DNA from: Bacillota bacterium
Lineage (GTDB): Bacteria; Bacillota; Sulfobacillia; Sulfobacillales; JAIMBI01
Direction: 5' to 3'
DNA length: 45,532 nucleotides
Assembly (NCBI GenBank): GCA_021820465.1
Contig: JAKADP010000012.1
Span: 1 to 45,532 of the forward strand
The translations under genes were made by a program, and so were the position numbers. Positions within the stretch are counted from its first letter, which is position 1. Each line of letters begins with the position of its first letter. The notes under the pieces are model-generated. The model was not told the DNA's origin and ran no database searches. It saw nothing but the letters and a program-made list of their open reading frames with translations. Shown here in pieces: positions 9,559-37,700 of the stretch.

Positions 9559-9572
9559 CCGCGAGAGGCTCA

Positions 9573-12052: not shown

Positions 12053-12064
12053 TTCAATCTTAAC

Positions 12065-12474: not shown

Positions 12475-12496
12475 AACCGGTCGAACGCTCAAATAA

Positions 12497-12540: not shown

Positions 12541-12560
12541 ATGGGTCGCCTCGCCACGCG

Positions 12561-13562
12561 CTACGTGGTGCCGTTGGCGGTCGCCTTGGTTTTGTTGACC
12601 ACTTGGTTGGCGCCGCGCTTGGTGTCGTGGACCGCGGTCTTCGTGCTTTTCTTGGCCTTGTGCACCAAGATTTTGCCATCGTGCTTGACGGTGTGGCCCG
12701 CCCGCTTCACGGCCGCGCGGGCCATGGTGCCCGCTTTGCGGTGAGCCACCTTGTTGGGCAGCAGCCACAGCACGCTGTGGTACGCCCGGCCGTACTGCGC
12801 CGATGTGGCGGGCTTGCCCTTGGCCTCGGCATAGCCGTGGTGCCAGCCCCACTTGGCCGGCTCAGACACCATGAAGCCGGCAATTTTGCCGGACGCGGCC
12901 ACCAGCACCTTGATGGCAGGCCCCGACTTGGGTCCGTACACGGCGTCGCCCATGTAGGAGGTGGGGGATTTCGCATACGTCGCCGTCAGGCGTGGATTGG
13001 CCATCTCGAATGACGCCCAGCTGCCGAGATTGGTCGGGAGGGTCGCGGACATCGTGGGCGTGATGGACGCCGGGGGGACGAAGTACAAGTGCTCGCTGTT
13101 GAATGCCACGCCGCCATTGGGGGCCGTGTCCGGCGGGTCATACCACGGGTAGGTGCCCAGCTTTTGGGGGAAGTCCGCTTCTACCGCGGTCACCTGATCC
13201 ACGTTGTTGGCCATGAGGACCAAGCCCGGGAAGGGAGCCGCCCAGTGATACCCCATGCCCGGGATGAAGCTGGAAATTTCGTGGGTGTGCTTCAGCCACG
13301 GGTTCAACTTCTTTTCGTAGGAGAGCGGCGGCAGGGTGGTGAGCGACAGCGCCTTGACGCTCGCGCCTGACTTTTTCCCCTTGGTGCCCGCCTTGGCTGT
13401 GCCCGTCTTGCCGCCACTGCTGTGATGGGCCGGCGGACGGGACGTGGGGCTTTTCTGCGGCGCAGGATTGGTGGCCCCGCAGGCCGCAGCGGTCAGAGGC
13501 ACTGCGAGGGCCAAGGCCGCACCCATAAGGCGCGGCCAGCGGGATCGGCTCATGCTTGCCAT
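12561..13562 (-). CDS. Secreted lipoprotein with a lysine/histidine-rich tail, function unknown
   Basis: 333 aa. The N-terminus is a lipoprotein signal: basic start, hydrophobic core and lipobox LTAAAC with Cys28. A low-complexity Pro/Ser/Lys/Gly linker runs to about residue 70. The middle part (about 75-265) is a globular domain rich in Trp, Tyr, Pro and His, for example GMGYHWAAPFPGLVL, and has the feel of a DUF5602-like or substrate-binding surface domain, but I cannot name it. The last 60 residues are lysine-rich with repeated AxKKA/HDxK spacing, similar to histone H1-like tails. ATG 13562 has a GAGAAGGTG ribosome binding site. It diverges from a secreted beta-helix gene 245 bases away, so the two could share regulation at the cell surface. 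It ends at a good terminator. Confidence 0.7.
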   Translation of the reverse strand: MASMSRSRWPRLMGAALALAVPLTAAACGATNPAPQKSPTSRPPAHHSSGGKTGTAKAGTKGKKSGASVKALSLTTLPPLSYEKKLNPWLKHTHEISSFIPGMGYHWAAPFPGLVLMANNVDQVTAVEADFPQKLGTYPWYDPPDTAPNGGVAFNSEHLYFVPPASITPTMSATLPTNLGSWASFEMANPRLTATYAKSPTSYMGDAVYGPKSGPAIKVLVAASGKIAGFMVSEPAKWGWHHGYAEAKGKPATSAQYGRAYHSVLWLLPNKVAHRKAGTMARAAVKRAGHTVKHDGKILVHKAKKSTKTAVHDTKRGANQVVNKTKATANGTT

Positions 13563-13807
13563 GGTGGCACCTTCTCGCTCCAGAATAGTGAGGGCGGCCC
13601 GGCCGCCTCGCTAATTCCTAAGCTGGCCGCGCGGCCAAGGGCGCATACCGGCAAAGTTTGGCCGAGGGACCCAATGCCGCCCACACCGTTGACGGTGGCT
13701 GGAGCGGCCATTAACCTTTTAACGGGAAAGTACGCTTGACCACCCTTGTGCAAACAAAGATTGTCCGGCGTACGCCCGTCACTAATACTAAAAGGACGTG
13801 AAGACCC

Positions 13808-15220: not shown

Positions 15221-15280
15221 GAATTCGACACCGATTTGTGTCGAACGGCGCCGCAGCGCGCCACTCCCGTTATAGACTTC

Positions 15281-15321
15281 AAGAGCGCGGAGCCCGGGCC
15301 AGCCCCGGGCTCCGCGCTCTT
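15281..15321. terminator. Bidirectional terminator
   Basis: A perfect 18-bp stem (AAGAGCGCGGAGCCCGGG with its exact complement) and a 5-base loop lie between the converging beta-helix and molybdoenzyme genes. AA and TT at the ends give a short A/T pair on each strand. Confidence 0.8.
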
Positions 15322-15332
15322 GCCACCGGCCG

Positions 15333-17339
15333 TCAGCCCAAGCTGGTGATCGACACGCGGGTGGTGTAAAACGTGGCGCCCCCGCCGTAGTCAGACAGGC
15401 GCTGGCTGGTGAGCTGGTTGATGTTGGAGCCACCAGCCTCGTCCAGCCAGCGGACGGCATAGCTCACCACCGTGCCCGCCGGGACGGCGGCGCTCTCCCG
15501 GACGGTCAGCACGGTCGCGCCCTGCGCATTGTGCACGCGCACGGAGTCCCCGCCCTGCACTCCCAGTGACCGCATGTCGACGGCGGCCATCAGCAGGGTG
15601 GGAGGCTCGTGGGGCCGGACCCGGGCCACGTTGCCAAATGACGACTTAATGGTCTCGCGCCGCGACGGCGTCAGCAGGTGAAACGGCCGCTCCGCATCGG
15701 GATCGGAGGCGGGCGGGTCGGCCAGTGGCGGCGGATTCAAGCGGATGCGGCCACTCGGCGTCCGCACCGGGGTGTCTATGAAGGGGCGAGAGGCTTGGGG
15801 CAGCCGGATCTTCTGAGCGGGCGACTCCATGAGCCGGGAGCGGGTGATGCCCTGAAGCCACGGGTGATCGGCGCTGTTGGCCAGCAGTTCATCCAGCAGC
15901 GCCTCGTCACTGGCAAACAGGGCAGGATCCGACAGCCCCGTGGCCCGCGCCAAGCGGCGAAACAGCTCCGGGTTCGACACCGCCTCACCGGGGGGCGGCA
16001 CGGCCGGCCGGTTCAACTGGATGTACCGGTGCCAGTAGGAGGTGTGAAGGTCCAGCACCTCGAGGCTCATCGCCGCTGGGAGCACCCAGTCGGCGTAACG
16101 CGTCGTGTCGGTCGGCATTTGCTCATGCACGACGGTGAACAAGTCCTCGCGCTGGAGCCCCCGCAGCACGGCGGCCTGGTCCGGGGCCGTGGCAGCCGGG
16201 TTGCTGTTGTACACGATGAGCGCTGCGACCGGCGGATCCGTGAGCGTGGTGAGCGCGTCACCCAGCTGAATCATATTGATGGACCGCGGCGGCGGACTGG
16301 CGGTCCCGCGCACGGCCAGCGGCGCCAGCGGAAACGCATCGCCGTTGCCGTGCAGGAACCCGCCGCCCACGTCCGCCAGTGCGCCCGTGATCACGGCCAG
16401 CGCGGCGATGGCCCAGGTGGCTTCGGCACTGCGGGCCTGTCGCTGCACCCCATAGCCCGCCCGAATCAGCAGGGGGCGCGTCGAGGCGAGGCGGTCCGCC
16501 AGGGCGGCGATGGTCTCCGGCGCAAGACCGGTAGCCGCCGCCGTGCGAGCCAGCGGCCACTCTAGCGCCGCCTGGCGATAGGCGGCGAAGCCCTCGGTCC
16601 GCTCGGCAATGAAGGCGTTATCAAGGCGGCCAGTTTGGATGAGCTGATGGCCCAGGCCCAGCGCCAGCGCCACGTCGCTGTTGGGCGCCGGCGCCACATG
16701 CTGGTCAAATCGCCTGGCCGTGGCGGTGGCCAGCGGGTCCACCGTCACGATCCAGGCACCCCGCCGCCGCGCCTCGTCCAAGAGAGGGATGGCGTGGACG
16801 CTGGTGGCCGCCGGGTTCGCTCCCCAAAGGAGGATGAGCCGCACGTCGGGCAAGGTTTCGGGGTCTGGGCCCAAGCTTTGGCCAAACATCCAGCGAGCCG
16901 TGGCCCCGGCGCTGGCCGTGCAGATGGTCCGGTCCAGGCGGCTGGCGCCCAGCGCCGCGAAAAAGCGCCGGTCCAGCGAGTCAGACGCCAACAGGCCCAT
17001 GTTGCCGGCAAAGCTATACGGGAGAATCGCTTCGCCACCGAAGCGGGTGCGGATAGCCTGCAGGCGCGGGCCAATGTCCGCCAGCGCCTCGTCCCAGCTG
17101 GACCGCACAAACTGCCCGGCGCCCTTCGGACCCACGCGCCGAAGTGGATAAAGCAGGCGCTCCGGATGGTAGAGCCGGTCCAAATAGTGGTTGACCTTAA
17201 AGCACAAGAATCCCTGGGTGATGGGGTGGCTCGGGTCTCCAGCTATGCGGGTGACTCGGCCGTCGTCCACGGTGACCCGAAGTCCGCACGTGTCGTAGCA
17301 GTCGTGCGGGCACACGCCAAACGTGGTGGTGCTCTCCAT
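15333..17339 (-). CDS. Molybdopterin-dependent oxidoreductase (BisC/formate dehydrogenase-like catalytic subunit)
   Basis: 668 aa, cytoplasmic (no Tat signal). The N-terminus binds one 4Fe-4S cluster through Cys10, Cys14, Cys18 and Cys46 (pattern CPHDCYDTC...LCFK). The molybdopterin dinucleotide regions follow, including a VRLILLWGANPAATSV segment and an ALIVYNSNPAAT segment. The C-terminal molydop-binding barrel contains LTPSRRETIKSSFGN and an NINQLTSQR region near the end. The Mo ligand cannot be fixed by eye. ATG 17339 has a GAGGAGAG ribosome binding site; the longer open frame upstream is basic junk. The gene is the last of a three-gene operon with the TPR protein (65 bases upstream) and the FAH-fold enzyme. 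No electron-transfer subunit is nearby. Substrate unknown. Confidence 0.87.
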   Translation of the reverse strand: MESTTTFGVCPHDCYDTCGLRVTVDDGRVTRIAGDPSHPITQGFLCFKVNHYLDRLYHPERLLYPLRRVGPKGAGQFVRSSWDEALADIGPRLQAIRTRFGGEAILPYSFAGNMGLLASDSLDRRFFAALGASRLDRTICTASAGATARWMFGQSLGPDPETLPDVRLILLWGANPAATSVHAIPLLDEARRRGAWIVTVDPLATATARRFDQHVAPAPNSDVALALGLGHQLIQTGRLDNAFIAERTEGFAAYRQAALEWPLARTAAATGLAPETIAALADRLASTRPLLIRAGYGVQRQARSAEATWAIAALAVITGALADVGGGFLHGNGDAFPLAPLAVRGTASPPPRSINMIQLGDALTTLTDPPVAALIVYNSNPAATAPDQAAVLRGLQREDLFTVVHEQMPTDTTRYADWVLPAAMSLEVLDLHTSYWHRYIQLNRPAVPPPGEAVSNPELFRRLARATGLSDPALFASDEALLDELLANSADHPWLQGITRSRLMESPAQKIRLPQASRPFIDTPVRTPSGRIRLNPPPLADPPASDPDAERPFHLLTPSRRETIKSSFGNVARVRPHEPPTLLMAAVDMRSLGVQGGDSVRVHNAQGATVLTVRESAAVPAGTVVSYAVRWLDEAGGSNINQLTSQRLSDYGGGATFYTTRVSITSLG

Positions 17340-17404
17340 CACAGCTCTCCTCCCCAGGGTCTCCTCCCAAGCCTCTCCGCCTGCTGCGCCGCTGGCCTTC
17401 GCAC

Positions 17405-17932
17405 CTACCCCCGGTACCCCAGATCCCACGCCCGGTCGAAGGCCGCGGACGCCTCGTCCCAGTGGCCGTTGGCCCCGAGCCACTGCGCCCAGTGGTGCCA
17501 GGCCAGGCCCACCGGGGGATCGGCCGCCGCGGCCCTGCGGTAGGCGTCCCAGGCGCGCTCGCGGTGGCCCAGCGCGGCGGCCACGTTGCCCATGATGGTC
17601 AGGAACAGGGCGTCGTCCGGGCGGCTCGCGAGGGCGCGCTCAATGTGGGACAGCGCCTCTTGGGGCCGCCACGTCTTTTCCAGGGAGCTGGCCAGAAAGG
17701 CATGAGCCTCGACGTCGTGGGTCGTTCCCAACCTCAGCGCCTCCCGATACGCGGGGATGGCCGTCGCCTCGCGGCCCAACGTATCCTGCGCGGCCGCCCA
17801 CCAGTACCAGGCCTCTCCGTCCGCCGGGGCTTCGGCCACCAACGTGGCCAGCTGGCGCCGGGCGGCCTCCGCCTCTCCGACCTGCAGGGCGGCGGCGGCC
17901 GCCGCCACCGCCGCGCCGTGGTCGCCAGTCAT
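17405..17932 (-). CDS. Tetratricopeptide-repeat protein
   Basis: 175 aa composed of about four to five TPR units, recognisable from W/A/G/Y/A/P spacing. Examples are EAWYWWAAAQDTLGR, ALSHIERALASRPDD and AWDAYRRAAAADPP. There is no signal peptide or membrane segment. It would act as a protein-protein scaffold. Its ATG overlaps the stop of the FAH-fold gene (ATGA), so the two are translationally coupled. The molybdoenzyme follows after 65 bases. A role as assembly factor for that enzyme is a guess from position. Confidence 0.82.
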   Translation of the reverse strand: MTGDHGAAVAAAAAALQVGEAEAARRQLATLVAEAPADGEAWYWWAAAQDTLGREATAIPAYREALRLGTTHDVEAHAFLASSLEKTWRPQEALSHIERALASRPDDALFLTIMGNVAAALGHRERAWDAYRRAAAADPPVGLAWHHWAQWLGANGHWDEASAAFDRAWDLGYRG

Positions 17933-18825
17933 GCGCGCGGCGTGCTGGCGATGAAGCGGTTGGTCAGGGTCCCCAGCTTTTCGATGGTGACCGCGATCTC
18001 ATCGCCCGGAGCGAGCCAGTGCTGCTCCTCGGGGGGCATCCCGGCGATGACCCCGTTGGGCGTACCCGTGAAGATGATGTCCCCCGGCTCGAGGGTAAAC
18101 AGCGTGGAGCAGTACGCCACAATCTCCGCGCACGAGAAAATCATGTCCGACGTGTTGGCCTCCTGACACGTGTGGCCGTTGCGCGTCAGCGCAATGCGGA
18201 GGCGCTGGGGGTCGCCCACTTCCTCGGCGGTCGTGCAGAACGGGCCCACCGGAGCAAACCCATCCAGTGACTTGCCAATGAGCCACTGGCCGGAGCGGTG
18301 CTGGAGGTCCCGGGCCGACACGTCGTTGCCCGTGGTGTAGCCCAGGACAGATGCGAGCGCACGGGCGGCGTTCACCTCGTGGCACCGCTGCCCCATGACG
18401 ATGACCAACTCCGCCTCGTAGTCGAGGCGCCGGGTGGCCGTCGGGATGGGGATGTCCTGCTCAGCCGCCGCCAGCGCATTAGAAAACTTGCTGAACAGGA
18501 CGGGCTGTTCCGACGCGTGGCTCTTGGTCTCCGCGACGTGGGCTCCGTAGTTGAGTCCGACGCAGATGATTTTCTGCGGCCGCTCAACGATCGGGCGCCA
18601 GGCAAAGGTTCCCGGCTCGGCGACCGAGAACGTCTGGGCGTCGCGGGACAGGAGAGCCGAAACCTCCTCCCATCCGGATCCCAAGGGGTGGCGGTGCAGC
18701 ACGTCCTCCAGGGAGGTCACGGGGCGACCGGCGCCCTCGTAGTCCCTTGGAACCTGGACCAGGTCCTGCCCTCGCTGAATCGCCAGCGTGGGCTCTCCAT
18801 TCACGACGATGTTTGCCAGCTTCAC
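17929..18825 (-). CDS. Fumarylacetoacetate hydrolase (FAH) family enzyme
   Basis: 298 aa. The short N-terminal domain is followed by the FAH catalytic fold with its metal and acid residues in ICVGLNYGAHVAE, DYEAELVIVMG and GNDVSARDLQ. The GKSLDGFAPVGP and FTGTPNGV motifs follow. The family includes 2-hydroxyhepta-2,4-diene-1,7-dioate isomerase, ureidoglycolate lyase-like and acylpyruvase/oxaloacetate tautomerase activities, and sequence alone does not separate these. GTG 18825 with AAGGGGG seven bases before it is the right start; the longer frame upstream is not conserved. It is the first gene of the operon with the TPR protein and the molybdoenzyme. An 11-bp tandem repeat sits 15 bases upstream of the start. 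Confidence 0.88.
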   Translation of the reverse strand: MKLANIVVNGEPTLAIQRGQDLVQVPRDYEGAGRPVTSLEDVLHRHPLGSGWEEVSALLSRDAQTFSVAEPGTFAWRPIVERPQKIICVGLNYGAHVAETKSHASEQPVLFSKFSNALAAAEQDIPIPTATRRLDYEAELVIVMGQRCHEVNAARALASVLGYTTGNDVSARDLQHRSGQWLIGKSLDGFAPVGPFCTTAEEVGDPQRLRIALTRNGHTCQEANTSDMIFSCAEIVAYCSTLFTLEPGDIIFTGTPNGVIAGMPPEEQHWLAPGDEIAVTIEKLGTLTNRFIASTPRA

Positions 18826-18839
18826 ACTCAAACCCCCTT

Positions 18840-18861
18840 GATACCTTGACGATAGCTTGAC
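18840..18861 (-). repeat. 11-bp tandem repeat upstream of the FAH operon
   Basis: GATACCTTGAC and GATAGCTTGAC stand back to back (10 of 11 bases equal) just before the ribosome binding site. One-helical-turn spacing would suit a regulator binding site. Confidence 0.45.
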
Positions 18862-19060
18862 GGGATTCCGTGGGCGGCGGGGCGGCGCACGGACAGACTC
18901 TAGGACCGCGCGCCCCGCCGGCCCCCCGATTCTCTCACGATACACGACGGGATGCGCCAAGTCGCGGGAGCCAGATTCCGCCGGGGCTGATGGGCGTCCA
19001 CGCGAAGGGCCTGGCCGATGGGGCCCCTCGGCTCCATCCAGGATGGCAGCGGCCATTGCA

Positions 19061-26416: not shown

Positions 26417-27409
26417 GTGCGGCGGTCCGAGCGCCTCATGGCGCTGGTGCTGGAGTTGGAGGGGCGCCCTCAAGCAACGGTGGGCGAGCTGGCGTGCACC
26501 TTCGAGGTATCCCGGCGCACCATGCTGCGCGACCTGGCGGCCCTGTCGGCTGTGGGCGTGCCGCTGGCCAGCCGCCCAGGCCCGCACGGAGGCTACCAGC
26601 TCGTGCGAGACCGGGTGCTGCCGCCGGTGTCGTTCACCGTGGACGAAGCCACCGCCTTGTTTTTTGCCCAGCAGGCGCTCGAAAATTACGGCACCCTGCC
26701 GGTGGCGGCCGAGGCCCGCGTGGCGCTCCACAAGCTGTACCGGGCGATGGCGCCGGCGGCGCGGACGCGCGTGGACCGGCTGGCCGGCCGCCTCGCGTTT
26801 GTGGCCGAGCGGCGCAGCGCCAGCCATCCGCACCTGGAGGCGCTCTTGGCGGCGGCTTTGGAGGGGCGCGTGGTGGCGGTGGCGTACCGGGGCCCCGGCG
26901 GGCTCGCCACGCGCGCCATTCAACCCGTGGGGGTGTTTGCCGAGCACGGGTACTGGTACGTGCCCGCCTACTGCTTTTTGCGGGAGGGCATGCGGGTGTT
27001 TCGGGTGGACCGCGTGGACGCGGTCCAGGCCGTCGACGACCCGCCGCCCCGACAGGACGTGGCGGCCCTGACGCTGGAAGACTACTATGAGCGCTTCGTT
27101 AAGCCCCATGCCGCGTGGCGGCCGCTCAGGGTGCGGCTCACGGCCGAGGGCGTTCGGCAGCATGCGGGCAATCCGGACCTCCACGTGAACCCGGACGGCT
27201 CGGGCTGGCTCGACGGCCGCTTGGAAAGTGCCGACTTGGACCTGTTTGCCGAGCGGTTTGCCCGATGGGGCGCGGATGCCGTGGTGGAGCAGCCGCCGGA
27301 GCTGCGCCAACGCATTCACGAGCGCGCGGCGGCGCTGGCTGCCCTGTACGCCCCGGAGGGGGCATGCGCCCGCCGCGGGCAGGACACGAGGGAAGGGGGA
27401 GGCCATTGA
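26417..27409 (+). CDS. WYL-domain transcriptional regulator
   Basis: 330 aa. Residues 1-65 form a winged helix of the HTH_11/DeoR type (TVGELACTFEVSRRTMLRDL). The centre is the WYL sensor domain (AVAYRGPGG...AIQPVGVFAEHGYWYV) with the signature Trp-Tyr kept but Leu replaced by Val. A C-terminal WCX extension follows. WYL proteins bind nucleic acid or nucleotide ligands and are frequent controllers of defence and stress loci. GTG 26417 has GGAGGG five bases upstream; GTG 26414 and a TTG at 26390 are less likely. It diverges from the ABC operon, which it probably regulates, and its stop overlaps the rsm22 start (TTGA). Confidence 0.87.
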   Translation: MRRSERLMALVLELEGRPQATVGELACTFEVSRRTMLRDLAALSAVGVPLASRPGPHGGYQLVRDRVLPPVSFTVDEATALFFAQQALENYGTLPVAAEARVALHKLYRAMAPAARTRVDRLAGRLAFVAERRSASHPHLEALLAAALEGRVVAVAYRGPGGLATRAIQPVGVFAEHGYWYVPAYCFLREGMRVFRVDRVDAVQAVDDPPPRQDVAALTLEDYYERFVKPHAAWRPLRVRLTAEGVRQHAGNPDLHVNPDGSGWLDGRLESADLDLFAERFARWGADAVVEQPPELRQRIHERAAALAALYAPEGACARRGQDTREGGGH

Positions 27410-28383
27410 ACCTGACGGACGACCTGCAGAGCGCCATCGCGGACGAAGTGGCGGCCTTGGCGGTGGAGCACCGGGAGCTGGCCGCCGCTGCCACGCGGCT
27501 GTCCCGCCGGTACCGAGAGGGCGGGCCGGCCACCGGCCTCGATGGGTCCCCTGCCGCTATCGCCGCCTACCTGGTGACCCGCCTGCCCGCGACGTGGGCG
27601 GCCACCGTGGCCGCCCTCTCGGCGGTGGCGGATGCCCGCCCCGCCTGGCACCCCCGCACCTTGCTGGATGTGGGTGGGGGTCCCGGCACCGTGCTCTGGG
27701 CGACCACCAGCGTGTGGGGAAGCCTGGAGCGGGCGGCGGTGGTGGAGCAGGATCCCCGCATGCTGGCCGTGGGGCGCCGGATGGCCCAGCGTGCCCAGCC
27801 GCCGGCGGTGCGCGGCGCGCGCTGGCTGGCGTCAGACGTCACCCGGGGCGATTGGCAGCAGCCCGCGGACCTTGTGGTGGCGGCGTATGTTTTGGGAGAG
27901 CTGCCCCCGGCCGCGCGCGCTCGGTTCATTGAGCGCCTGGTCACCATGGCCACGGTAGCGGTGGTCGTGGAGCCCGGCACCCCCGAGGGGTCCGCCAGGG
28001 TGCTGGCGGCGCGGGAAGTGGCCCTCGCGGCCGGCGGCCGCACGGTGGCGCCGTGCCCGCATGACGAAGCGTGCCCCTTGGCCCGTCCGGACTGGTGCCA
28101 CTTCGCCGCGCGGGTGAACCGCACGAAGCTGCACCGCCAAATCAAGGGGGCCCAGGCCCCGTACGAAGATGAGAAATTCAGCTACGGGGCGTGGACCCGC
28201 GAGCCGGTGGACCGGCCGGGGCCGGCCCGCGTACTTCGGCACCCGCGCATCGACCCTGGGCGAATCACGCTCTCGCTGTGCACAATGGATGGGACGGCCC
28301 TGGAGACCGTGACAGCCCGAGACCGGTTGCCGTTCAAGGCTGCGCGGAAGGTGTCGTGGGGCCAAACCTGGCCGCCCGCCTAA
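27406..28383 (+). CDS. Rsm22-type methyltransferase (small-subunit ribosomal family)
   Basis: 325 aa. SAM motif I LDVGGGPGT is at residues 87-95 and motif II near VVVEPGTPEG. Cys217, Cys223, Cys231 (CPHDEACP...WC) and Cys292 have the spacing of the Fe-S cluster ligands in mitochondrial Rsm22/METTL17. The FKAARKVSWGQ tail is also typical. The family associates with small-subunit assembly; methyl transfer has not been proven for all members. TTG 27406 overlaps the WYL stop and has a GGAAGGGGGAGG ribosome binding site, so it is translated with the regulator. Its 3' two thirds, plus 44 bases beyond the stop, is duplicated at 29346-30050. Confidence 0.88.
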   Translation: MNLTDDLQSAIADEVAALAVEHRELAAAATRLSRRYREGGPATGLDGSPAAIAAYLVTRLPATWAATVAALSAVADARPAWHPRTLLDVGGGPGTVLWATTSVWGSLERAAVVEQDPRMLAVGRRMAQRAQPPAVRGARWLASDVTRGDWQQPADLVVAAYVLGELPPAARARFIERLVTMATVAVVVEPGTPEGSARVLAAREVALAAGGRTVAPCPHDEACPLARPDWCHFAARVNRTKLHRQIKGAQAPYEDEKFSYGAWTREPVDRPGPARVLRHPRIDPGRITLSLCTMDGTALETVTARDRLPFKAARKVSWGQTWPPA

Positions 28384-28427
28384 CAGAACCGCTGCAGCGC
28401 GGGCGCAGGATGGGGCGTTTATCCACA
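27691..28427 (+). repeat. Direct repeat, copy 1 (3' part of rsm22)
   Basis: Starting at GTGCTCTGGG and ending at TTTATCCACA, this 0.74-kb stretch recurs downstream with long identical runs and a few small deletions. It covers codons from about 96 to the stop of the intact gene and 44 bases beyond. Confidence 0.92.
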
Positions 28428-28640
28428 TGCGTGGCGGCGTTGGAGGCCGTCTTGGCCGCCATCGACCGCTGCGGCGCCGATGCCCTCGTTGTCTTCAGCG
28501 ACGTGGCGTGGGGACCCCAGCCTGCGGAGAGCGGGGAGCGCCTCATAGCCTTGCCGGGTCCCGCATGCTTTGTACAAGCCACGCCGACCGCAAGGTGGGC
28601 GCGCGGTGGGGGTGGAGCAAGCTCGGACCGCTGCGGACCA
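28428..28640 (+). pseudogene. Metallophosphoesterase remnant
   Basis: Directly after the repeat boundary, a fragment reads ALEAVLAAIDRCGADALVVF, then DVAWGPQPAESGERLIALPG. This is the second and third motif region of YfcE-like calcineurin phosphoesterases (normally NLxALEAVL...GGDVVWGP...RGNADR). The preceding SDxHGN metal motif is missing. After CFVQ the reading continues in another frame as HADRKVG, the NADR motif. The fragment is therefore both truncated and frameshifted. It marks the junction of the duplication. Confidence 0.65.
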
Positions 28641-28697
28641 TCGCATTAGACACTACGGAGTTGGTTTGCGAAAATTAAAGGTAGGGAGGGATTTGGC

Positions 28698-28946
28698 ATG
28701 GCCCTCGAACGGCTGGTGTTGTCTTTGCCGGAAGAACTCGTTCAAGAAATGCGCGCGGCGGGTCCCGACATGGACCGGCTTGTGCTGGACGCGGTCACGC
28801 GAGAACTTACGCGGAGGCGTCAAGTTGATGCCCTGCGGCAAGCCGCCGGCCTGTGGTCGCACTATGCGGACATGCCCGATACCCCCGAAGGAATTGTTGA
28901 CTTTGTGAGAAAGTCGCGGCTAGATGCGGAGCGGCCCGTTCCGTGA
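28698..28946 (+). CDS. VapB-like antitoxin (ribbon-helix-helix type)
   Basis: 82 aa. The opening ERLVLSLPEELVQEM and the AVTRELTRRR helix resemble small ribbon-helix-helix antitoxins. The C-terminal half, with WSHYADMPDTPEGIVDFVRKSR, would wrap the toxin. ATG 28698 has a GGGAGGG ribosome binding site. The stop overlaps the PIN toxin start (GTGA). It lies between the two rsm22 repeats. Base composition is visibly lower in GC than the flanking genes, suggesting transfer. It remains intact although its toxin is broken. Confidence 0.72.
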   Translation: MALERLVLSLPEELVQEMRAAGPDMDRLVLDAVTRELTRRRQVDALRQAAGLWSHYADMPDTPEGIVDFVRKSRLDAERPVP

Positions 28947-29319
28947 CCTTTATGATTGACACGGATGTGCTGATTTGGGTGCTCAGGCGCAATCAGCCTC
29001 CCTCGAGTGGCTGGAAGCACTGGCCGCCCAAGGCGGTCTCGCGTGCTCCGTCTTAACAGTGTCGGAGATTCTCCGCGCAGCCAAGGAGCAGGAACTGTCC
29101 CGGACGCATGCCATCTTGCAGGCCTTCGATATGGTACCGGTCACCTACGAGGATGCGATCCTCGCTGCCGACATTATGCGGCAGCGGGGCCCGGGGCTGG
29201 TCGACTCTCACATCGCAGCAGCTGCCATTCGTTTGCAGGCGCACGTCGTGACGTATAAGCGGCGTGATTTCGAACGCACGCCCGTCTCCCTTGTGCCCAT
29301 TCCGTCGGCCACCCCCTAG
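28943..29319 (+). pseudogene. PIN-domain toxin (VapC-like) split by a frameshift
   Basis: The frame from GTG 28943 or ATG 28952 begins MIDTDVLIWVLRRN, the first PIN motif, and runs to a stop near 29058. The rest of the domain (SLEWLEALAAQGG, the Glu motif TVSEILR, and LVDSHIAAAAIRL with VTYKRRDF) is in the next frame and ends at 29319. One base missing near 28991-29005, around CAGCCTCCCTCG, explains it. All acidic PIN residues survive across the two frames. It could be a recent inactivation, a sequencing error or a recoding site. Confidence 0.75.
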
Positions 29320-29345
29320 CGGGACTTTAACACGTACGCGGTAGT

Positions 29346-30006
29346 GTGCTCTGGGCGTCCTCCTGCGTGTGGGGAAACGTGGAGCGGGCGGCGGTGGTGG
29401 AGCACGATCCCCGCATGCTGGCCGTGGGGGCGCCGGCTGGCCCAGCGCGAGCTGGGTGGTGTCAGACGTCACCCGGGGCGATTGGCAGCAGCCCGCGGAC
29501 CTTGTGGTGGCGGCGTATGTTTTGGGAGAGCTGCCCCCGGCCGCACGCGCTCGGTTCATTGAGCGCCTGGTCACCATGGCCACGGTAGCGGTGGTCGTGG
29601 AGCCTGGCACCCCCGAGGGGTTCGCCAGGGTGCTGGCGGCGCGGGAGGTGGCCCTCGCGGCCGGCGGCCGCACGGTGGCGCCGTGCCCGCATGACGAAGC
29701 GTGCCCCCTGGCCCGTCCGGACTGGTGCCACTTCGCCGCCCGGGTGAACCGCACGAAGTTGCACCGCCAAATCAAGGGGCCCCGTACGAAGATGAAAAAT
29801 TCAGCTACGGGGCGTGGACCCGCGAGCCGGTGGACCGGCCGGGGCCGGCCCGCGTACTTCGGCACCCGCGCATCGATCCTGGGCGCATCACGCTTTCGCT
29901 GTGCACGATGGACGGGACGGCCCTGGAGACCGTGACAGCCCGAGACCGGGTGCCGTTCAAGGCTGCGCGGAAGGTGTCGTGGGGCCAAACCTGGCCGCCC
30001 ACCTAA
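29346..30006 (+). pseudogene. Truncated, frameshifted copy of the rsm22-like gene
   Basis: The product matches residues from about 96 to the end of the intact gene at 27406. It has no start region. Near 29390-29460 it carries an extra G and a deletion of about 25 bases. At 29775-29783 seven bases are missing relative to copy 1 (GGGGCCCC instead of a longer run), which shifts the frame into the one ending at 30006. Cys motif and SAM motif II are still readable. It is not expected to make a working protein. Confidence 0.88.
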
Positions 30007-30050
30007 CAGGACCGCTGCAACGCGGGCGCCGAATGGGGCGTTTATCCACA
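29346..30050 (+). repeat. Direct repeat, copy 2
   Basis: Second copy of the segment at 27691-28427, 0.7 kb long. Both copies stop at the same TTTATCCACA. The copies flank the phosphoesterase remnant and the toxin-antitoxin locus in direct orientation, so recombination between them would delete 28428-30050. Confidence 0.92.
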
Positions 30051-30075
30051 AACGGATGGCGCAGGAGGTGCCCGG

Positions 30076-31073
30076 GTGACGCAGCGAGCGGTGAGATTCC
30101 TGTGGCTGATGGCGCTGGGTGCGCTCGTGGGCTGCGGCACGGTCCCACACGGGGCTGCACAGGGCGGCGGCCACGGCCGCCGCGTCCCCTGGGCGGCTTT
30201 AGCGGGTCAGGTGCCTCAGGCAGGTATGCGGGTGGCCGCGGCTCCGACCCTGCTGAGTGCTCCCGCGTGTCAGCCGCAGAACCTGCAAGTGGTGTCGGTG
30301 GGACCGAATCAGGCCACGCAGGACGACGGCGTGGAGGTGGTGCTGAAAAACGCGGGGCCGCGGGCGTGCGTGGCGTGGGGGCCCACCTCCGTGGTGGCCA
30401 CGGGGCTGGGCTTGGCTCCGGTCACGGGGCCGGTGCGGCCGATGCCTTCATACGGGGACCGGGTGGCGACGCCCCCGGGCGGGCAGGTGGTGGAGCGCAT
30501 CGACGCTTTGGTGGCGTGTCCCAGCAATCCGGGCGGGGTCGTTCCCCCGGGGCGTGTCTATCAGGCGGTGCGGCTGACCGTGGGAACATCGGCGCACGGC
30601 CCCGCCACGGGCAGTATTACGGTGTCCGGGCTGCATCTGTCGCTGCCATGCGGCATCTCCGCCAGCCCGTTCTACACCAATAAGCCGACACCCGCATTCA
30701 ATCCCGGCCCGGTGGGGCATCTTGAGCCGTCGCTATCCGGACCGCTGACGCTCACCAGGGTGGCAGGGCAGCCGGCGCTGACTTACACGCTGACGTTGGC
30801 CAATCCCACGGCCTCGCCCATTCGCCTGGTGCCTTGTCCGTCTTATCTGGAGCGCGTGTCCACCGGAAAGTGGCGGTGTATCGCCTGAACTGTCAGGAGG
30901 CCCGCTCCGTCCCCGCCCATGGCGCCGAGCGCTTTGCCATGGTGTTGCTCGTGCCGAAGGACGCCATTGGCCAGCCGGTCGTGTCCATTGGCGAGCCGGT
31001 GGAGGTTGAGTGGATGTTGCCCCTCCCGGTCCTAGGCCCGGTTGCCCGAATCGCGGGAAGAGTGGTGGGGTAG
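30076..31073 (+). pseudogene. Lipoprotein of unknown function with a frameshift near its end
   Basis: GTG 30076 has GGAGGTG seven bases upstream. The N-terminus is a lipoprotein signal with Cys20 after ALVG. The body has an ACQPQNLQ...VVLKNAG...CVAW pattern resembling DUF4232-like domains, where paired Cys residues and an N-x-G turn are typical. The first frame stops at 30886-30888 just after YLERVSTGK. The next frame continues plausibly with VYRLNCQEA and FAMVLLVPKDAIG to a stop at 31071-31073. One A missing from the GGAAAG run at about 30868 would restore one protein of about 330 aa. If real, the truncated 270-aa form is what is made. Confidence 0.65.
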
Positions 31074-31155
31074 GCGGAGCCATCGCCAGGAACCGGGCAC
31101 CTGCGTGGAGAACCCCCTGCTTTCGGCCACATACGCTCTAATGTCGGATAGTGTA

Positions 31156-31174
31156 TGATATACTTACTCAGTAT
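31156..31174 (+). promoter_or_regulatory. Extended -10 promoter with overlapping inverted repeat
   Basis: TG-A-TATACT (31156-31164) is an extended -10 element. No good -35 is present, which is usual for this class. ATACT-TACTC-AGTAT (31160-31174) is a 5-bp inverted repeat covering the -10 and the expected start of transcription, a natural place for a repressor. It precedes the M48-nuclease-macro cluster. Confidence 0.45.
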
Positions 31175-31188
31175 GGGAGGGGATGGAC

Positions 31189-32100
31189 GTGGGGCGGGCC
31201 GTGCGCTTTGTGGGGCGGGGGCTGTGGTACACCCTGCTCGCGGCCATCTTAGCTCTGGTGTTTTGCTACAACGCGCTGCTTCTGACGTTTCTGGCCGGCT
31301 CAGTCAGTGCCGCGCCGGTGGCGGTGGGGTTTGGCGCCGAAGCCGCGCTGGTGCTGGTGGGGCTGTCCCCCCCTGGGCAGTCTGTGCTGGCGTGGCTGGC
31401 GGGGTGCCGGCCCCCGACGGCGGCCCAGCGCGCCTATTTGACGGGCGTGCTGTCCGCCGTCCGGGGGCGGACCGGCTATCAGCGGCCCGTGGTGCTGCAC
31501 GTGATTCGGGTCCGGCCGGTGAATGCGTTTGCGCTTGGCACGCGCCACGTGGCGGTCACCTTAGGCTGGTTCGGGCTGCCGCGCGATGAGCAGGAGGCTA
31601 TTTTGGCCCATGAGCTGGGTCACCTGCGCGGGGGCCACAGTGTTATGACCGGGGGCTTGTCGCTGATGAGCACGGCCGGCAACGCGCTGGGGTGGCTGGC
31701 AACGTGGATCGGGCTGGGCATCTTGGTGGGCGGTGCCCTCTCGGGGGGCCGCCGGCGCGACCAGGGTGCCGGCCTGGCGCTTCTGGTCCTGGGGTTTGCG
31801 CTGGCGGCGGCGTGCATGACGCTCACAGTGTGGGCCATGTGGGCGGTGTACTGCCGCCAGTCCGAATATGACGCCGATGCGTTTGCCAGCCGGCATGGCT
31901 ATCGGCTGGCGCTGGCGTCTGCGCTGGAGCGCATCACGCCGCCGCGCTTCACCGGCCGCAGTGTGACCAACACCGTGTGGGCATCCCATCCCGCCACTTG
32001 GCGGCGGCTGTCGCGGCTGGAGCAGCCGCACCGGCCGCCGCGGGTGCGCGCCGCGCAGCCGGTGGCGGCCGCCCCGCCGCGGCGGACCCGGCGCTTCTGA
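31189..32100 (+). CDS. M48 family membrane metalloprotease (HtpX-like)
   Basis: About 303 aa. Two N-terminal transmembrane helices precede the catalytic domain. The zinc motif HELGH is at about 141-145 and the third ligand Glu at about 226 in SEYDADAFA, with two further helices between them. This is the HtpX/Ste24-like layout. The C-terminus is basic and Pro-rich. ATG 31183 is only two bases from GGGAGG, so GTG 31189 with eight bases is preferred. It is 46 bases upstream of the nuclease/helicase gene and probably the first gene of that operon. It could act in membrane protein quality control or in the system formed with its neighbours. Confidence 0.88.
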   Translation: MGRAVRFVGRGLWYTLLAAILALVFCYNALLLTFLAGSVSAAPVAVGFGAEAALVLVGLSPPGQSVLAWLAGCRPPTAAQRAYLTGVLSAVRGRTGYQRPVVLHVIRVRPVNAFALGTRHVAVTLGWFGLPRDEQEAILAHELGHLRGGHSVMTGGLSLMSTAGNALGWLATWIGLGILVGGALSGGRRRDQGAGLALLVLGFALAAACMTLTVWAMWAVYCRQSEYDADAFASRHGYRLALASALERITPPRFTGRSVTNTVWASHPATWRRLSRLEQPHRPPRVRAAQPVAAAPPRRTRRF

Positions 32101-32146
32101 GCGGCGACCTTTCGTATCACCATGGGCAGTCAAAGGAGCGGTGGAC

Positions 32147-35100
32147 ATGGACCAGAGCGAGGATCGATTTAGCGCCAGCGACTTGGTGGATTTCATGGCG
32201 TGCCCCCGTAAGCTCCTACTCAACCGGGAATCTCGCCACGCGCTCGTGGAGCCGCCGCCGCGCGACGAGCTGGCGGAGTTTGTCGCCGAGCAGGGCCTCG
32301 CGCATGAGCAGCGGGTGCGGGAGCAGCTGGCCGAAGCGCATCCGGACCTCACAGCCATTGCGGGCACCAGCGCCGAACAGCGCCGGGCCGACACCATAGA
32401 AGCCATGCGCCAAGGCGTATCGGCGATTGACCAGGGCGATTTGTGGGCCCCGCCCTGGACGGGCCGGCCGGACTTTCTCATCCGGGTCGACGAGGGCGAG
32501 AGCCGATTTGGCGCCTATCACTACCAGCCGATTGATGCCAAGCTGGCCACCCGGCCGCGGGGCGAGGCGGTGGCCCAGCTGACGCTCTATTCCCTGATGC
32601 TGGATGACGTGCAAGGCGTGACGGCTCCGCGCTTTCACATTGCGCTGGGCAATGGGGACACCGAGCCGCTGCCCACCGAACGCTTTTCAGCCTATGTGCA
32701 GGCCGCCCAGCAGCGCCTGCTGGAGTGGATTGCTCCGGGGCCCGCCTCGGCGGCGGTGTACCCGGAGCCGGTGCCGGCGTGCCGGCACTGCGACTGGCGG
32801 CCTACCTGTGATGACATCCGGCGGCGCGATGACCATGTGGCATTTTTGGGCGGCGCCGGCCTCGGAGACGTGGCGAAGCTCCGGGCGGCCAACGTGGCGA
32901 CCATGGCGGAGCTGGCTTCGCTGGCCGAGGATCGGGTCGTGGAGGGCATGAGCCGCCCGGCGCTGCAGCGCTGGGCCCGCCAGGCGCGCCTCCAGGTGCG
33001 GCAGCGGGCCGACGGCGCGCCCCACCACGAAGTCCTGCCCGATGCCGACCGGGGCTTTCGCATCCTGCCGGATCCGACGCCGGGCGACTTGTTTCTATCG
33101 ATCCAGGAGGACCCGTGGGCGCCCGACGGTCCCCAGGCGTATCTCTGGGGGTGGATCTCGGGCCGCGACGAGGGCCAAGAGTGGAACTACGGGTGGGCCC
33201 ACGACCGCGAGAAGGAGCAGGAAGGCTTTCAAAAGGTCGTGGACGTGATTGTCGGCGAGCGGGCCAAGCACCCGGGCATGCACGTGTATCACTATGGGCC
33301 CGGCGTGCGCACCCGTCTGGAGTATCTCATGGGCGCCCGCGCGGCGCGCCAGCGCGAGCTGGACGCACTGCTGCGCGCCGGGGTGCTGGTGGACCTCCAG
33401 CGGGTGCTGCGCCGGGTGGTGCTGGTGTCGGCGGAAAGTTACGCCCTGCCCGACGTCGAGGCGTTTTACGCCCACGTGGTGCCCCCGCGCGCCCCCGACA
33501 CGATGGACGGGGCGCGGGCGCCCCTCTACTACCACAGCTGGCAGGATACTGGCGACGCGAAGTGGCTCATGGCGCTTGAGGCCTACAACCAGGCGGAGTG
33601 CCGCTCGCTCTGGGGCCTCCACCAGTGGCTCATCGATTTGAGGCGGCAGCATCGCGGGGCTCGGTATGAGCCTTGGCAGGAGGATGGCCCCGCCACGGAG
33701 CTGCTGGACGTGTCGGACTTGCTGGCCTCGCCCGAGGTGGGCCGCCAGACGCTGGGCCATCTGCTTCAGTATCACTGGCGCGAGGAGCGCAGTGCGCATG
33801 CCGCCTTGGAGCAGCGCAAGCGCGCCACGCCAGAGGAGCTGCACGACGACCCCGAAGCCATTGCCCACCTGGAGTGGGTGCGCCGGGATCCCAGGCTGGG
33901 CGACGTGTATCGGTTCGACCCCTTGCAGCCCGTCAAGGTGAACGCCGGCACCGAGGTGCTGGATGCGGAAACGCACCGGCGGCTTGGGGTGCTGACCGAG
34001 GTGGATCTGCTGGCGGGCACGGTGGCGCTGGGCCGCCCTGCAGGAGTTCCCCACCCCCAGCACCTAGTCAGCCGCACCATCGTGGAGGCTGGCGCAATTG
34101 TCGTCGCGCTTGAGCGCCTTCGGGGGGCACTGGACCGCGGGGGCACGCGGTATCGGGCGGCGTGGCAGGTGCTGAGCCGCGAGGTTCCGTCGTGGCGGTC
34201 GGCTGCCCGACAGGCCGCGGGCTTCGGCGACCCCGGGCTGCCGGAGGACATGGTTGCGCGCGCCCAAGAGCTGGCCCTCGATCTGGACAACAGCTTTCTG
34301 GCCGTCCAGGGGCCGCCCGGCACCGGGAAAACCTATCTCGGCGCCCAGGTGGTGGTCCGCCTGCTGGCCGAGGGCCACTCCGTGGGCGTGATGGGCCCCA
34401 GCCACAAAGTGGTGAGCAATCTGCTGGAGGCCATTGTGGATGCGGCGCCCCCCGGGCTGGTGCGGGGCCTTCAAAAAGTCAGCGGACCCAATCAGGCGGC
34501 CGGGCGCGGAATTCAGAGCACCAGCAACAACTACCGGGTCGAGCAGGATGTCCGCCGGGGGCAGGTGAACCTGGTGGCTGGGACCGCGTGGCTGTTTGCC
34601 CGGGAGGCGCTGGACGGCACGCTGGACTACCTGGTGGTGGACGAAGCCGGCCAAGTCCCGCTGGCCAATGCGCTGGCGGGGGCCACCGCCGCGAGGAACA
34701 TCATCCTGCTGGGGGATCCGCAGCAGCTGCAGCAGCCGCAGCTCGCGGCCCATCCCGAAGGCAGCAGCGGCTCCGCCTTGAGCCACGTGGTGGGCCCCCA
34801 GCCGGTGATTGACGGGGATCGCGGCTTGTTTCTTGAGCAGACGCGCCGCATGCATCCGACCATCACGCGGTTCATCAGCCGCCTGGCCTATGATGGGCGC
34901 CTAGTGGGTGTGGCCGGTCTGGAGCAGCAGCGCATCCACGTCGCGGGTGAGGACGCAGCCGGGCTCTGGTATGTCCCCGTGGAGGGAGCGGCTCACAACG
35001 ACTCCGCCTCCCGAGAAGAAGCGGCCGCAGTGGCCGCGCTGGTTCGGGCGCTGCGGCAGGGCACATGGACAGACGCCGCGGGGGTCACGCGGCCGCTGTC

Positions 35101-35479
35101 TGCCGACGACATCTTGGTCGTGGCGCCGTTCAATCGCCACGTGAATCTCCTGGCGGAGATGCTGCCCGACGGCAGCCGCATCGGCACCGTGGACAAATTC
35201 CAGGGCCAGGAAGCCGCCGTGGCCATCTATACCACGGCGGCCGCCGACGCGCAGCGGGTGGGGCAGGGCCCGGAGTTTCTCCTGAACCTGAACCGGCTGA
35301 ACGTCGCGGTGTCGCGGGCCCGTGCGCTGGCCGTGCTGGTGGCGCATCCGGCTCTGCTGGCCTCTCGGCCGATGGACCCGGCGCCGCTGGCCGTGGTGAA
35401 TGCCCTGTGCGCGCTGGCGGCCGACGCGAGCCCGCTGCCCGCGGCGCTGGCCCGCCAACTGCCTCGGGCGGGAGGATAG
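32147..35479 (+). CDS. TM0106-type fusion: Cas4/RecB-like Fe-S nuclease and superfamily 1 helicase
   Basis: 1110 aa. The N-terminal nuclease has Cys19 plus Cys212, Cys215, Cys221 (Cas4/AddB-type 4Fe-4S site) and acidic residues in GRPDF (Asp109) and YQPIDAKL (Asp130, Lys132). The middle region (about 305-490) corresponds to the YprB/RNase H-like domain, but its expected DxExD strand reads LSIQED, so it may be inactive. The helicase has Walker A GPPGTGKT at 722-729, DEAG at 832-835, LLGDPQQL, a DKFQGQE motif and LNVAVSRAR at the end. It resembles Dna2/Upf1-like helicases. ATG 32147 is eight bases from AAAGGAG; GTG 32141 is too close. Such fusions are linked to DNA repair or mobile-element defence; its role here is unproven. 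Confidence 0.9.
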   Translation: MDQSEDRFSASDLVDFMACPRKLLLNRESRHALVEPPPRDELAEFVAEQGLAHEQRVREQLAEAHPDLTAIAGTSAEQRRADTIEAMRQGVSAIDQGDLWAPPWTGRPDFLIRVDEGESRFGAYHYQPIDAKLATRPRGEAVAQLTLYSLMLDDVQGVTAPRFHIALGNGDTEPLPTERFSAYVQAAQQRLLEWIAPGPASAAVYPEPVPACRHCDWRPTCDDIRRRDDHVAFLGGAGLGDVAKLRAANVATMAELASLAEDRVVEGMSRPALQRWARQARLQVRQRADGAPHHEVLPDADRGFRILPDPTPGDLFLSIQEDPWAPDGPQAYLWGWISGRDEGQEWNYGWAHDREKEQEGFQKVVDVIVGERAKHPGMHVYHYGPGVRTRLEYLMGARAARQRELDALLRAGVLVDLQRVLRRVVLVSAESYALPDVEAFYAHVVPPRAPDTMDGARAPLYYHSWQDTGDAKWLMALEAYNQAECRSLWGLHQWLIDLRRQHRGARYEPWQEDGPATELLDVSDLLASPEVGRQTLGHLLQYHWREERSAHAALEQRKRATPEELHDDPEAIAHLEWVRRDPRLGDVYRFDPLQPVKVNAGTEVLDAETHRRLGVLTEVDLLAGTVALGRPAGVPHPQHLVSRTIVEAGAIVVALERLRGALDRGGTRYRAAWQVLSREVPSWRSAARQAAGFGDPGLPEDMVARAQELALDLDNSFLAVQGPPGTGKTYLGAQVVVRLLAEGHSVGVMGPSHKVVSNLLEAIVDAAPPGLVRGLQKVSGPNQAAGRGIQSTSNNYRVEQDVRRGQVNLVAGTAWLFAREALDGTLDYLVVDEAGQVPLANALAGATAARNIILLGDPQQLQQPQLAAHPEGSSGSALSHVVGPQPVIDGDRGLFLEQTRRMHPTITRFISRLAYDGRLVGVAGLEQQRIHVAGEDAAGLWYVPVEGAAHNDSASREEAAAVAALVRALRQGTWTDAAGVTRPLSADDILVVAPFNRHVNLLAEMLPDGSRIGTVDKFQGQEAAVAIYTTAAADAQRVGQGPEFLLNLNRLNVAVSRARALAVLVAHPALLASRPMDPAPLAVVNALCALAADASPLPAALARQLPRAGG

Positions 35480-35549
35480 CCCCGGTGGTGGATTGCGGGA
35501 GGGGGCCGGGACCGGAGGCCGTCAGGCCATCATGCGAGGAGGGACAGTG

Positions 35550-36149
35550 ATGAGCGGACCACTCCGCGTGGCGCTGGTGGGGCCCCAGGACCTCGCCGAC
35601 GCGTGGACGAGGGCCTTTCGAGGCACGCCCGTGTCTATCCAGGTGGGCGACATTTTGTCTGAGGCCCGCGAGCAGGCGCTGGTGTCGCCCGCCAACAGCT
35701 TTGGGTGGATGACGGGTGGGTTGGACTTGGGCATAACCTGGGCGTACGGTCGGACCCTCGACATTGGCCGCCGCGTCCGGGCGGCCATCACGCAGGACGC
35801 CGCGGGCGAGTTGCCGGTGGGTCAGGCGCTGGTGGTTTCCACGCCGGAAGGGCCGTATACGCACTTGGTGTGTGCCCCGACCATGCGCACGCCGCAGGTG
35901 GTGGCCACGTCGCTGAACGCGTACCTGGCGTTTCGGGCGGTCCTGCTGGCGGTGCGGACATGGAACGCGCGCATGCCGACCGACCCGATCCGCCAGGTGT
36001 TTTGCCCGGGCCTCGGCACCGGCGTCGGCGCCATGCCGCCCGCGCGGGCCGCGCGCCAAATGCGGGCGGCTTGGGACCAGGTGATGGCGCCGGGGCCGCT
36101 GCCCCGCCTCGACCAGGCGGCGAGGGATGAGGCACGCTGGCGAGCATGA
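35550..36149 (+). CDS. Macro-domain protein (ADP-ribose binding)
   Basis: 199 aa. A macro domain is shown by VQVGDI-like IQVGDILSE, then ALVSPANSFGWMTGGLDLGI, the ADP-ribose-binding loop, and a second loop near CPGLGTGVGAMPP. The VSPANSFG variant belongs to a bacterial group often annotated as phage tail or Appr-1''-p processing proteins. Such domains remove or read ADP-ribose on proteins, nucleic acids or metabolites. ATG 35550 has GAGGAGGG upstream. It lies 70 bases after the nuclease/helicase gene on the same strand and converges on the GT-C gene 27 bases away. Confidence 0.83.
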   Translation: MSGPLRVALVGPQDLADAWTRAFRGTPVSIQVGDILSEAREQALVSPANSFGWMTGGLDLGITWAYGRTLDIGRRVRAAITQDAAGELPVGQALVVSTPEGPYTHLVCAPTMRTPQVVATSLNAYLAFRAVLLAVRTWNARMPTDPIRQVFCPGLGTGVGAMPPARAARQMRAAWDQVMAPGPLPRLDQAARDEARWRA

Positions 36150-36176
36150 GCCGGTGCGGTGCCAGCGGGCCCGCCG

Positions 36177-37700
36177 TCAAGACGAAGAGGTGGGGACCGA
36201 CTCCGCCTGGTAGACGTAATACCCATGCGCGTGCTGCAGCAGGCTCACGTACTGGAGCGCGCCCAGCGATGCTGAGGAAAACGCGGTGGCGGTTTCCTGA
36301 TACACCGCGCTGGCGGGCTTGGCATTCAAAATCACGGGGCAGGTGCCGCGGCGCCGGCAGTACGCCGCCGCTTGGCGGGCCACGCTGGGAATGTTGAGAT
36401 TCGTGTTGGCCGCATAGGCCAGATGAGGGTAGCCCATGAGGTCCAGCATGTACACATCCCAGTAGTAGCCCCACCCGGTGGTGTCGTGGTGCGCCAGAAG
36501 CCAGCTGGCCTCAGAACGGGTGGCGCGCACCGTGGCGTCGGGTCCGGCGTGGGTCACCCCCACCACGAAGCTGTGGCCGTCGTAAAGAAGCGCCGCCAAA
36601 AGGACCAGTGCCGCCACGGGAACGGCATGCGCGGCCGTCCTGAGCCACACCTGGCTGTTTGCCGCCAGGAAGATGGCCGTGGTGATGCCCAGCGTGTAGA
36701 GGCCTGGGTACAGGTAGCGAATGCTGTACATGTCGATGGGCATGGTGCTGGCGGCATACAGCACCATGTTGACGTACAGCGGCGAGATGACCAGCACCCG
36801 CGTGCCCAGGGTGCCCCACGGCGTCCAGAACAGGAACGCCGCGGACAGCGCCAGCACCGCGAGCCCGGTGGCGATGGCCGCCGGGTGGCTGGCGTAGGGA
36901 ATCGAGAAGATGCCCCAGGCGAACGCCTGCAACATGATGCGGACGTTGGGCACGATGTGGGCCAGCGTGGTGATGCCGGCGTGGAGGACGATTTTGCCGC
37001 CCTGGAGCCGGTAGGCGATGGCGGGCAGATAGCCCACCAGGAGGCCCAGGACGCCCGCGACTGCCGCCGCCAGCCGCGGCCGCTGGAGAAAAGCCCACAC
37101 AATCATGACGGCGAAGGGAATCAGCGCCGACACGACAATTTCGTCGGAATACCAAAAGAACCCCAGCACGAGGCCAAAGCCCAGAAAGCTGGCGGCCGAT
37201 ACCGGCAGCGATGGGATGTCCCGATACTTCAGGATCCAGCGCAGCAAAATGGCGGCGCCCAACAAACCCATGACATGGCCCGATGGGCGGAGCGTGTTCA
37301 ACGGGGCCAGCGCCAGAAACATGGCCAGCAGAACGAAGACCAAGGCGGCCCTGCGGGATACATACCGATCGAGCCCATCAATGAGGATGCCAAACGCCAG
37401 CGCTCCAAACAGCGCCCATCCGAGCGTCAGGGTCCACAGGTGCGGCCCAAACAGCTTGGCCAAGCCGGCGGCCACCCACGCCGGCGCCATGCCCATGTAC
37501 GACTGATTGGCCAGGAAGATGGGAAAGTGCGACAAGCCCTGCTGGGCCAGCATGAAGGCCTGCACGCCCGCAATGGCCGCGTCGGCGTTGAACAGGTTGC
37601 CGGCCGACAAAAAGGCGGTGAGATGAGCGGCCAGCCACACGACGGCAATGGCCGCAACCGCAGCCCATGCCGGCCAGCGGGTTTTCAATAAGGCATTCAT
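36177..37700 (-). CDS. Polytopic membrane protein, GT-C glycosyltransferase-like
   Basis: 507 aa with about 10-11 hydrophobic segments and a C-terminal soluble domain of about 110 residues. An early extracytoplasmic loop contains FNADAAIAGVQ, the position where GT-C enzymes carry their catalytic Asp. The tail includes SWLLAHHDTTGWGYYWDVY and CPVILNAKP. GT-C enzymes use polyprenyl-phosphate sugars on the outer membrane face. The GT2 enzyme that makes such donors is encoded directly upstream (119 bases), which supports the role. ATG 37700 has AAGGGGG upstream. The acceptor could be a glycolipid, wall polymer or protein; this is not decided by sequence. Confidence 0.72.
   Translation of the reverse strand: MNALLKTRWPAWAAVAAIAVVWLAAHLTAFLSAGNLFNADAAIAGVQAFMLAQQGLSHFPIFLANQSYMGMAPAWVAAGLAKLFGPHLWTLTLGWALFGALAFGILIDGLDRYVSRRAALVFVLLAMFLALAPLNTLRPSGHVMGLLGAAILLRWILKYRDIPSLPVSAASFLGFGLVLGFFWYSDEIVVSALIPFAVMIVWAFLQRPRLAAAVAGVLGLLVGYLPAIAYRLQGGKIVLHAGITTLAHIVPNVRIMLQAFAWGIFSIPYASHPAAIATGLAVLALSAAFLFWTPWGTLGTRVLVISPLYVNMVLYAASTMPIDMYSIRYLYPGLYTLGITTAIFLAANSQVWLRTAAHAVPVAALVLLAALLYDGHSFVVGVTHAGPDATVRATRSEASWLLAHHDTTGWGYYWDVYMLDLMGYPHLAYAANTNLNIPSVARQAAAYCRRRGTCPVILNAKPASAVYQETATAFSSASLGALQYVSLLQHAHGYYVYQAESVPTSSS

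Follow-up and report, generated by a model that had tools for sequence, protein, structure and literature searches.

The window analysed here, a stretch of 45,532 nucleotides from a Bacillota genome of the order Sulfobacillales, contains an accessory, variable segment (28381-36180) set between an Rsm22-like methyltransferase gene on its left and a gene for a 507-residue membrane protein on its right. The segment includes a plus-strand directon of three genes, specifically a gene for an HtpX/Ste24-like integral membrane zinc metalloprotease of the M48 family (31183-32100, with GTG at 31189 as a possible alternative start), a gene for a TM0106-type, DNA2-like helicase-nuclease (32147-35479, starting at ATG 32147, with GTG at 32141 as the alternative), and a facultative third gene that encodes a macro-domain protein of the phrog_2613 family (35550-36149, starting at ATG 35550). 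The gaps between them are 46 and 70 bases, and the gene downstream of the macro gene (36177-37700) is on the opposite strand. Gene calls and profile matches confirm the adjacency, order, strand, spacing and domain types given for these genes in an earlier note made from the DNA sequence, although that description lacked an RNase H-like domain that lies inside the helicase-nuclease. All three have dN/dS of about 0.2 between congeners, and this purifying selection indicates that they are genuine genes.

A promoter-like region precedes the directon (31136-31169, plus strand), with a -10-like TATACT at 31159-31164 and a weak -35 element. Upstream of the M48 gene an AT-rich box, GATATAC-TA, is conserved in all four congeners aligned, even though G002 is not syntenic there; the TATACT itself is kept, as TATACG in G002, and G001 and G003 have a perfect TTGACA-16-TATACT. 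In the window the -35 element is poor and a scan for consensus promoters returned none. A promoter common to the directon is plausible, and to this extent the earlier proposal of a single promoter with an overlapping operator-like repeat stands; a search of this region gave neither an inverted nor a direct repeat, which leaves the operator unsupported.

Protein families and catalytic residues

The M48 gene product matches PF01435 (E 4.9e-17; 62.8 bits against a cut-off of 20.3), and has an intact protease motif, with HELGH at residues 143-147 and a downstream glutamate, E228, as well as hydrophobic segments at approximately 9-59, 168-186 and 198-216. In its M48 domain, its HExxH motif with downstream glutamate and its membrane segments it is like the HtpX and Ste24 metalloproteases, but it falls far below the equivalog cut-off for HtpX (M48B; 35.9 bits at best against 275) and its orthologues are confined to the genus. 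By these profile scores it is classed as a Pfam M48 member and not as HtpX.

The helicase-nuclease matches the whole of TIGR03491, the TM0106 RecB-like nuclease family (E 1.2e-64; 218.9 bits against a cut-off of 97.45; model positions 2-462 of 462, residues 11-497), with the same domain order. It begins with an Fe-S RecB/Cas4-like nuclease domain (32165-32827), in which the family's Fe-S cysteines (C21, C214, C217 and C223) and PD-(D/E)xK residues (D111, D132 and K134) are intact. It ends with an SF1 helicase core of the IGHMBP2/Upf1/DNA2 type (34238-35365, residues ~700-1075; AAA_12, E 2.4e-20), where the Walker A and B motifs are preserved as GPPGTGKT at residue 724 and VDEAGQ at 833. The structural model (pLDDT 88.5) has mouse Dna2 as its best full-length fold match and, together with the domain calls, places the protein among DNA2-like enzymes, with an Fe-S nuclease N-terminal to an SF1B helicase. 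The same arrangement is found in eukaryotic DNA2 (5ean) and in the bacterial DNA2-like protein Bad of Geobacillus, which has an Fe-S nuclease and a 5'-3' helicase (PMC7430649). By analogy only, the activities of Bad support the prediction of nuclease and 5'-3' helicase activity for the window enzyme. A search of the genome for AddA, as a sign of a RecBCD-type enzyme, gave only UvrD/AddA-like matches below the cut-off.

What separates the window enzyme from DNA2 and Bad is the RNase H-like domain between its nuclease and helicase parts (33068-33640; RNase_H_2, E 4e-13, residues 324-497); the central domain of Bad is reported to have no known homology (PMC7430649), a comparison made from the description of Bad and not its sequence. 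Intact DEDD residues are common in the TIGR03491 family, although they are not part of its formal definition, and D-x-E is intact in nearly all of the 99 aligned family sequences that have data at this motif. In the window protein these acids are lost, with S320-x-Q322 in place of D-x-E, V389 in place of E and A485-E486 in place of D-D, and all four congeners have equivalent losses (S-x-Q, V/A and A/T-E). Among the 99 sequences, departures from the first motif like those of the genus occur only in three Chloroflexota loci (L141, L144 and L156) and in the partly changed L081. The three Chloroflexota proteins have H-x-E in motif I and no DEDD residues, form a separate branch adjoining the clade of the Sulfobacillus order, and perhaps lack the Fe-S cysteines as well. 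Within the TIGR03491 family, only this genus combines a lost RNase H-like site with an M48 gene directly upstream. The RNase H-like domain is still under purifying selection, which suggests that it has a structural role here. Our literature search found no paper that names TIGR03491, and none of relevance that names TM0106.

The macro protein matches PF01661 (E 2e-7; 31.4 bits against a cut-off of 22) and phrog_2613 (E 2.9e-44), and its model (pLDDT 92) has as its top fold match yeast Ymx7 (YMR087W, 1njr), an ADP-ribose-1''-monophosphatase. N49 and D59 are invariant in 39 macro sequences and align with N80 and D90 of 1njr, which we take to be catalytic together with H145; at the position of H145, however, the window protein has C108. 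The protein likely binds ADP-ribose; its hydrolysis of ADP-ribose is uncertain. Its profile also matches the macrodomain of DarG, with which it shares the macro fold, but no DarT was found in the genome or in 12 relatives, and a role as a DarG-like antitoxin was rejected on this basis.

Occurrence and relocation of the genes

We surveyed 101 genomes, the window's own (G000) included. Seventeen of them have the helicase-nuclease, and about 11 have close macro homologues, at 50-77% identity. The M48 orthologue, at 66-84% identity, occurs in only four, which are all the species examined of the genus. The full trio occurs in the same order in three of these congeners, G000, G001 and G003, and in no genome outside the genus, while G002 has the M48 and helicase-nuclease genes and lacks the macro gene. 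Outside the genus the M48 orthologue is missing, the helicase gene is solitary, with neighbours shared only between two closely related genomes, and helicase and macro genes lie on different contigs or far apart; their co-occurrence at the level of genomes is weak there (3/13 against 5/84; Fisher p 0.07). Around 80 named helicase homologues, taken with up to 10 kb on either side (1.1 Mb of flank), no macro gene was found, nor was one found in the helicase neighbourhoods of the other relatives examined, and a single locus had an M48 gene, unrelated, on the opposite strand and more than 4 kb away. The scattering across the relatives and the 80 loci, which the earlier note had itself named as speaking against its three-gene system, refutes that system as a general module. 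What survives of it is a conserved two-gene unit of M48 and helicase-nuclease, present in all four congeners and absent from the other relatives searched.

In G000, G001 and G003 the trio lies between the same two flanking genes, but in G002 this site is empty: the two flanking genes are 18 bases apart (positions 7973 and 7991 of contig C16), and the contig aligns to window positions 26422-28380 and 36181-37679 with nothing between. The M48-helicase pair of G002 lies instead on another contig, C69; apart from the pair this contig has no alignment to the window, and the neighbours there include pieces of an IS21 IstB/integrase and a resolvase. The pair has thus been held together at two sites. 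Amino-acid identity for the G002 copy is 62-66%, close to the 65% seen for the Rsm22-like gene in the same comparison. With only four genomes and one relocation, the conservation of the pair could also be due to linked DNA having moved once. In our tree the helicases of the order fall together in one clade (support 0.999), which makes it probable that the M48 gene joined a resident helicase in this genus.

The absence of the segment from the same site in G002 bears out the view that this is an accessory locus, and the degraded, rearranged region that had been noted upstream is also real: the 3' part of the Rsm22-like gene (27691-28427) has a second copy (29346-30050), 91% identical over 738 alignment columns, and between the copies (28698-29319) are a VapC-like PIN gene and, with it, a small gene presumed to encode an antitoxin. 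The whole stretch is unaligned at the site in G001, G002 and G003. The cargo of the site varies, with vapC and the duplicated Rsm22 fragment in G000 and, in G001 and G003, a different stretch together with the next gene there, c11, for which no PDB relative was found. Between G001 (L065:8840-17082) and G003 (L067:1-8245), identity is 91.7% over the trio and right flank and 80.6% over the left flank, which suggests that the accessory locus has recombined between lineages. In G003 the helicase and macro genes (L067:3106-7182) are each broken by a frame change, and helicase copies are split or interrupted also in G005, G007, G025 and G028, so that decay or assembly error is common in the order.

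The relatives of the macro gene are found in phages, on plasmids and in 98 viral contigs, and within the order and class they are either on contigs that also carry plasmid partition genes and the like, or next to genes of metabolism. In the macro tree the window gene groups with the copies of G005, G057 and G010. Three of the macro-gene contigs (L068, L069 and L071) share a large gene family (550-1221 residues; the single member scanned has a GGDEF domain), two of them have an actin-like ParM-type gene, and all three are probably plasmids. In a further genome, G012, insertion sequences are 90-92% identical to Sulfobacillus plasmids. The macro gene looks like an optional passenger from a phage and plasmid family. 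No M48 relative was found in viral contigs, and the pair was accordingly rejected as viral cargo.

Neighbourhoods of the helicase-nuclease family

A link with defence, as the earlier note had proposed, can be seen for the helicase family in other genomes. Neighbours of the named homologues match PADLOC models for Shango, BREX-like, Wadjet, Zorya, Septu and type I restriction-modification systems, and include methyltransferase genes. In eight loci, from Proteobacteria and one viral contig (L087, L094, L119, L123, L130, L152, L155 and the viral L250), an McrB-like AAA gene and McrC abut the helicase gene on the same strand, at spacings from overlap to approximately 560 bases and often with an overlap or a few bases; in three more loci McrB/McrC are near without abutting. 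In a Mucilaginibacter (L090, Bacteroidota; 9974-18949) SngA-like and SngB genes lie directly 3' of the helicase gene, and in an Erythrobacter (L110, Alphaproteobacteria; 6502-13378) SngB and SngC lie directly 5' of it; in both the helicase is in an apparent operon with Shango genes. Homologues of SngB and SngC were found only in these two loci, and the SngA query matched L090 only.

The abutting arrangement recalls CoCoNuT, in which the Upf1-like SF1 helicase CnuH is coupled to McrBC (PMC11090510), but CnuH contains OB-fold, RTL and coiled-coil elements, the main text of that paper does not mention RecB or Cas4 nucleases (PMC11090510), and the window locus has no McrBC. The McrBC-abutting helicase-nuclease is a candidate for a helicase-assisted type IV restriction system distinct from that of CnuH.

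Beside the window copy no such company was found. Its ten neighbours gave only two partial mad3 matches of about 70 residues each in PADLOC, and a local defence island was rejected on this result; no SngA, SngB or SngC lies near it, and no McrC was found in the genome or in 12 relatives, McrBC being found only beside relatives in other phyla. It should also be considered that our comparison of near and far genes is crude, since genes more than five positions from the helicases match many defence models too, and the neighbourhoods therefore show defence islands and not a measured enrichment.

Possible functions of the pair

A defence role for the helicase-nuclease is likely, since the family abuts McrB/McrC in eight loci and adjoins Shango, Zorya, Wadjet and restriction genes. 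Judged by this company, defence is the most probable role and DNA repair its main rival. Our preferred reading, which we hold tentatively and at somewhat below an even chance, is that the locus is built on a unit of M48 protease and DNA2-like nuclease-helicase that acts on invading or damaged DNA, and that the macro gene is a later arrival at this site, drawn from the phage and plasmid pool. By analogy with DNA2 and Bad, the helicase-nuclease would most likely recognise DNA ends or single-strand/duplex junctions, translocate on the bound DNA and cut it with its Cas4-like domain. The RNase H-like domain, whose exonuclease-type residues are kept in relatives, would here be only a scaffold or a DNA-binding module. 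The protease would probably limit or trigger the helicase-nuclease, or clear damaged membrane proteins under the same stress. The action of ClpXP on the HsdR subunit is a precedent for protease control of a restriction motor (PMC4231737), and motivates the proposed role of M48 without showing it. A more specific version, in which perturbation of the membrane by phage infection leads M48 to cleave or release the helicase-nuclease, or an inhibitor of it, and the dead RNase H-like domain has turned into a regulatory or docking element, is in our judgement improbable. Against the preferred reading, M48 proteases have housekeeping roles, defence genes are missing beside the window copy and McrC from the genus, and the conservation of the pair is seen in only four genomes with one relocation.

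One possibility, which we consider unlikely though it is the most serious of the alternatives, is that the helicase-nuclease is a solitary enzyme of DNA repair or end processing, and that M48 and macro have no relation to it beyond hitch-hiking in the same accessory hot spot. This would be consistent with its standing alone and without shared neighbours in most of the order, with a patchy distribution that includes the split or interrupted copies, with the biochemistry of Bad, which fits repair (PMC7430649), and with the other cargo of the hot spot; however, it does not readily explain why an M48 gene immediately precedes the helicase gene in all congeners, at two loci that are unrelated, nor the defence neighbours in other phyla. 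A true three-gene system, in which the macro protein takes ADP-ribose off target DNA or proteins, either for self-protection or to read a signal, would agree with the ordered trio of three congeners, the purifying selection on the macro gene and the match to the DarG macrodomain, but is quite improbable given the lack of macro in G002 and near any of the 80 helicase loci, the lack of DarT in the genus, the plasmid-like and phage setting of macro relatives, and the weak co-occurrence outside the genus. Least probable is that the locus is what remains of a mobile element in decay and has no joint function at present. The frameshifts of G003, the rearranged flank with vapC and gene duplication and the IS21-type remnants of G002 might point to this, but in G000 and G001 all three genes have open frames and evolve under purifying selection, the pair is intact in G002, and the nuclease, helicase and protease motifs are preserved.

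Co-occurrence is the usual means of finding anti-phage systems. In this case, testing it divides what looked like a three-gene system into a passenger and a candidate core pair, and brings to light a little-studied family of helicase-nucleases that is repeatedly seen next to McrBC, Shango and other defence genes. Moreover, a lineage in which the central exonuclease site is lost provides a natural test of the role of the RNase H-like domain.
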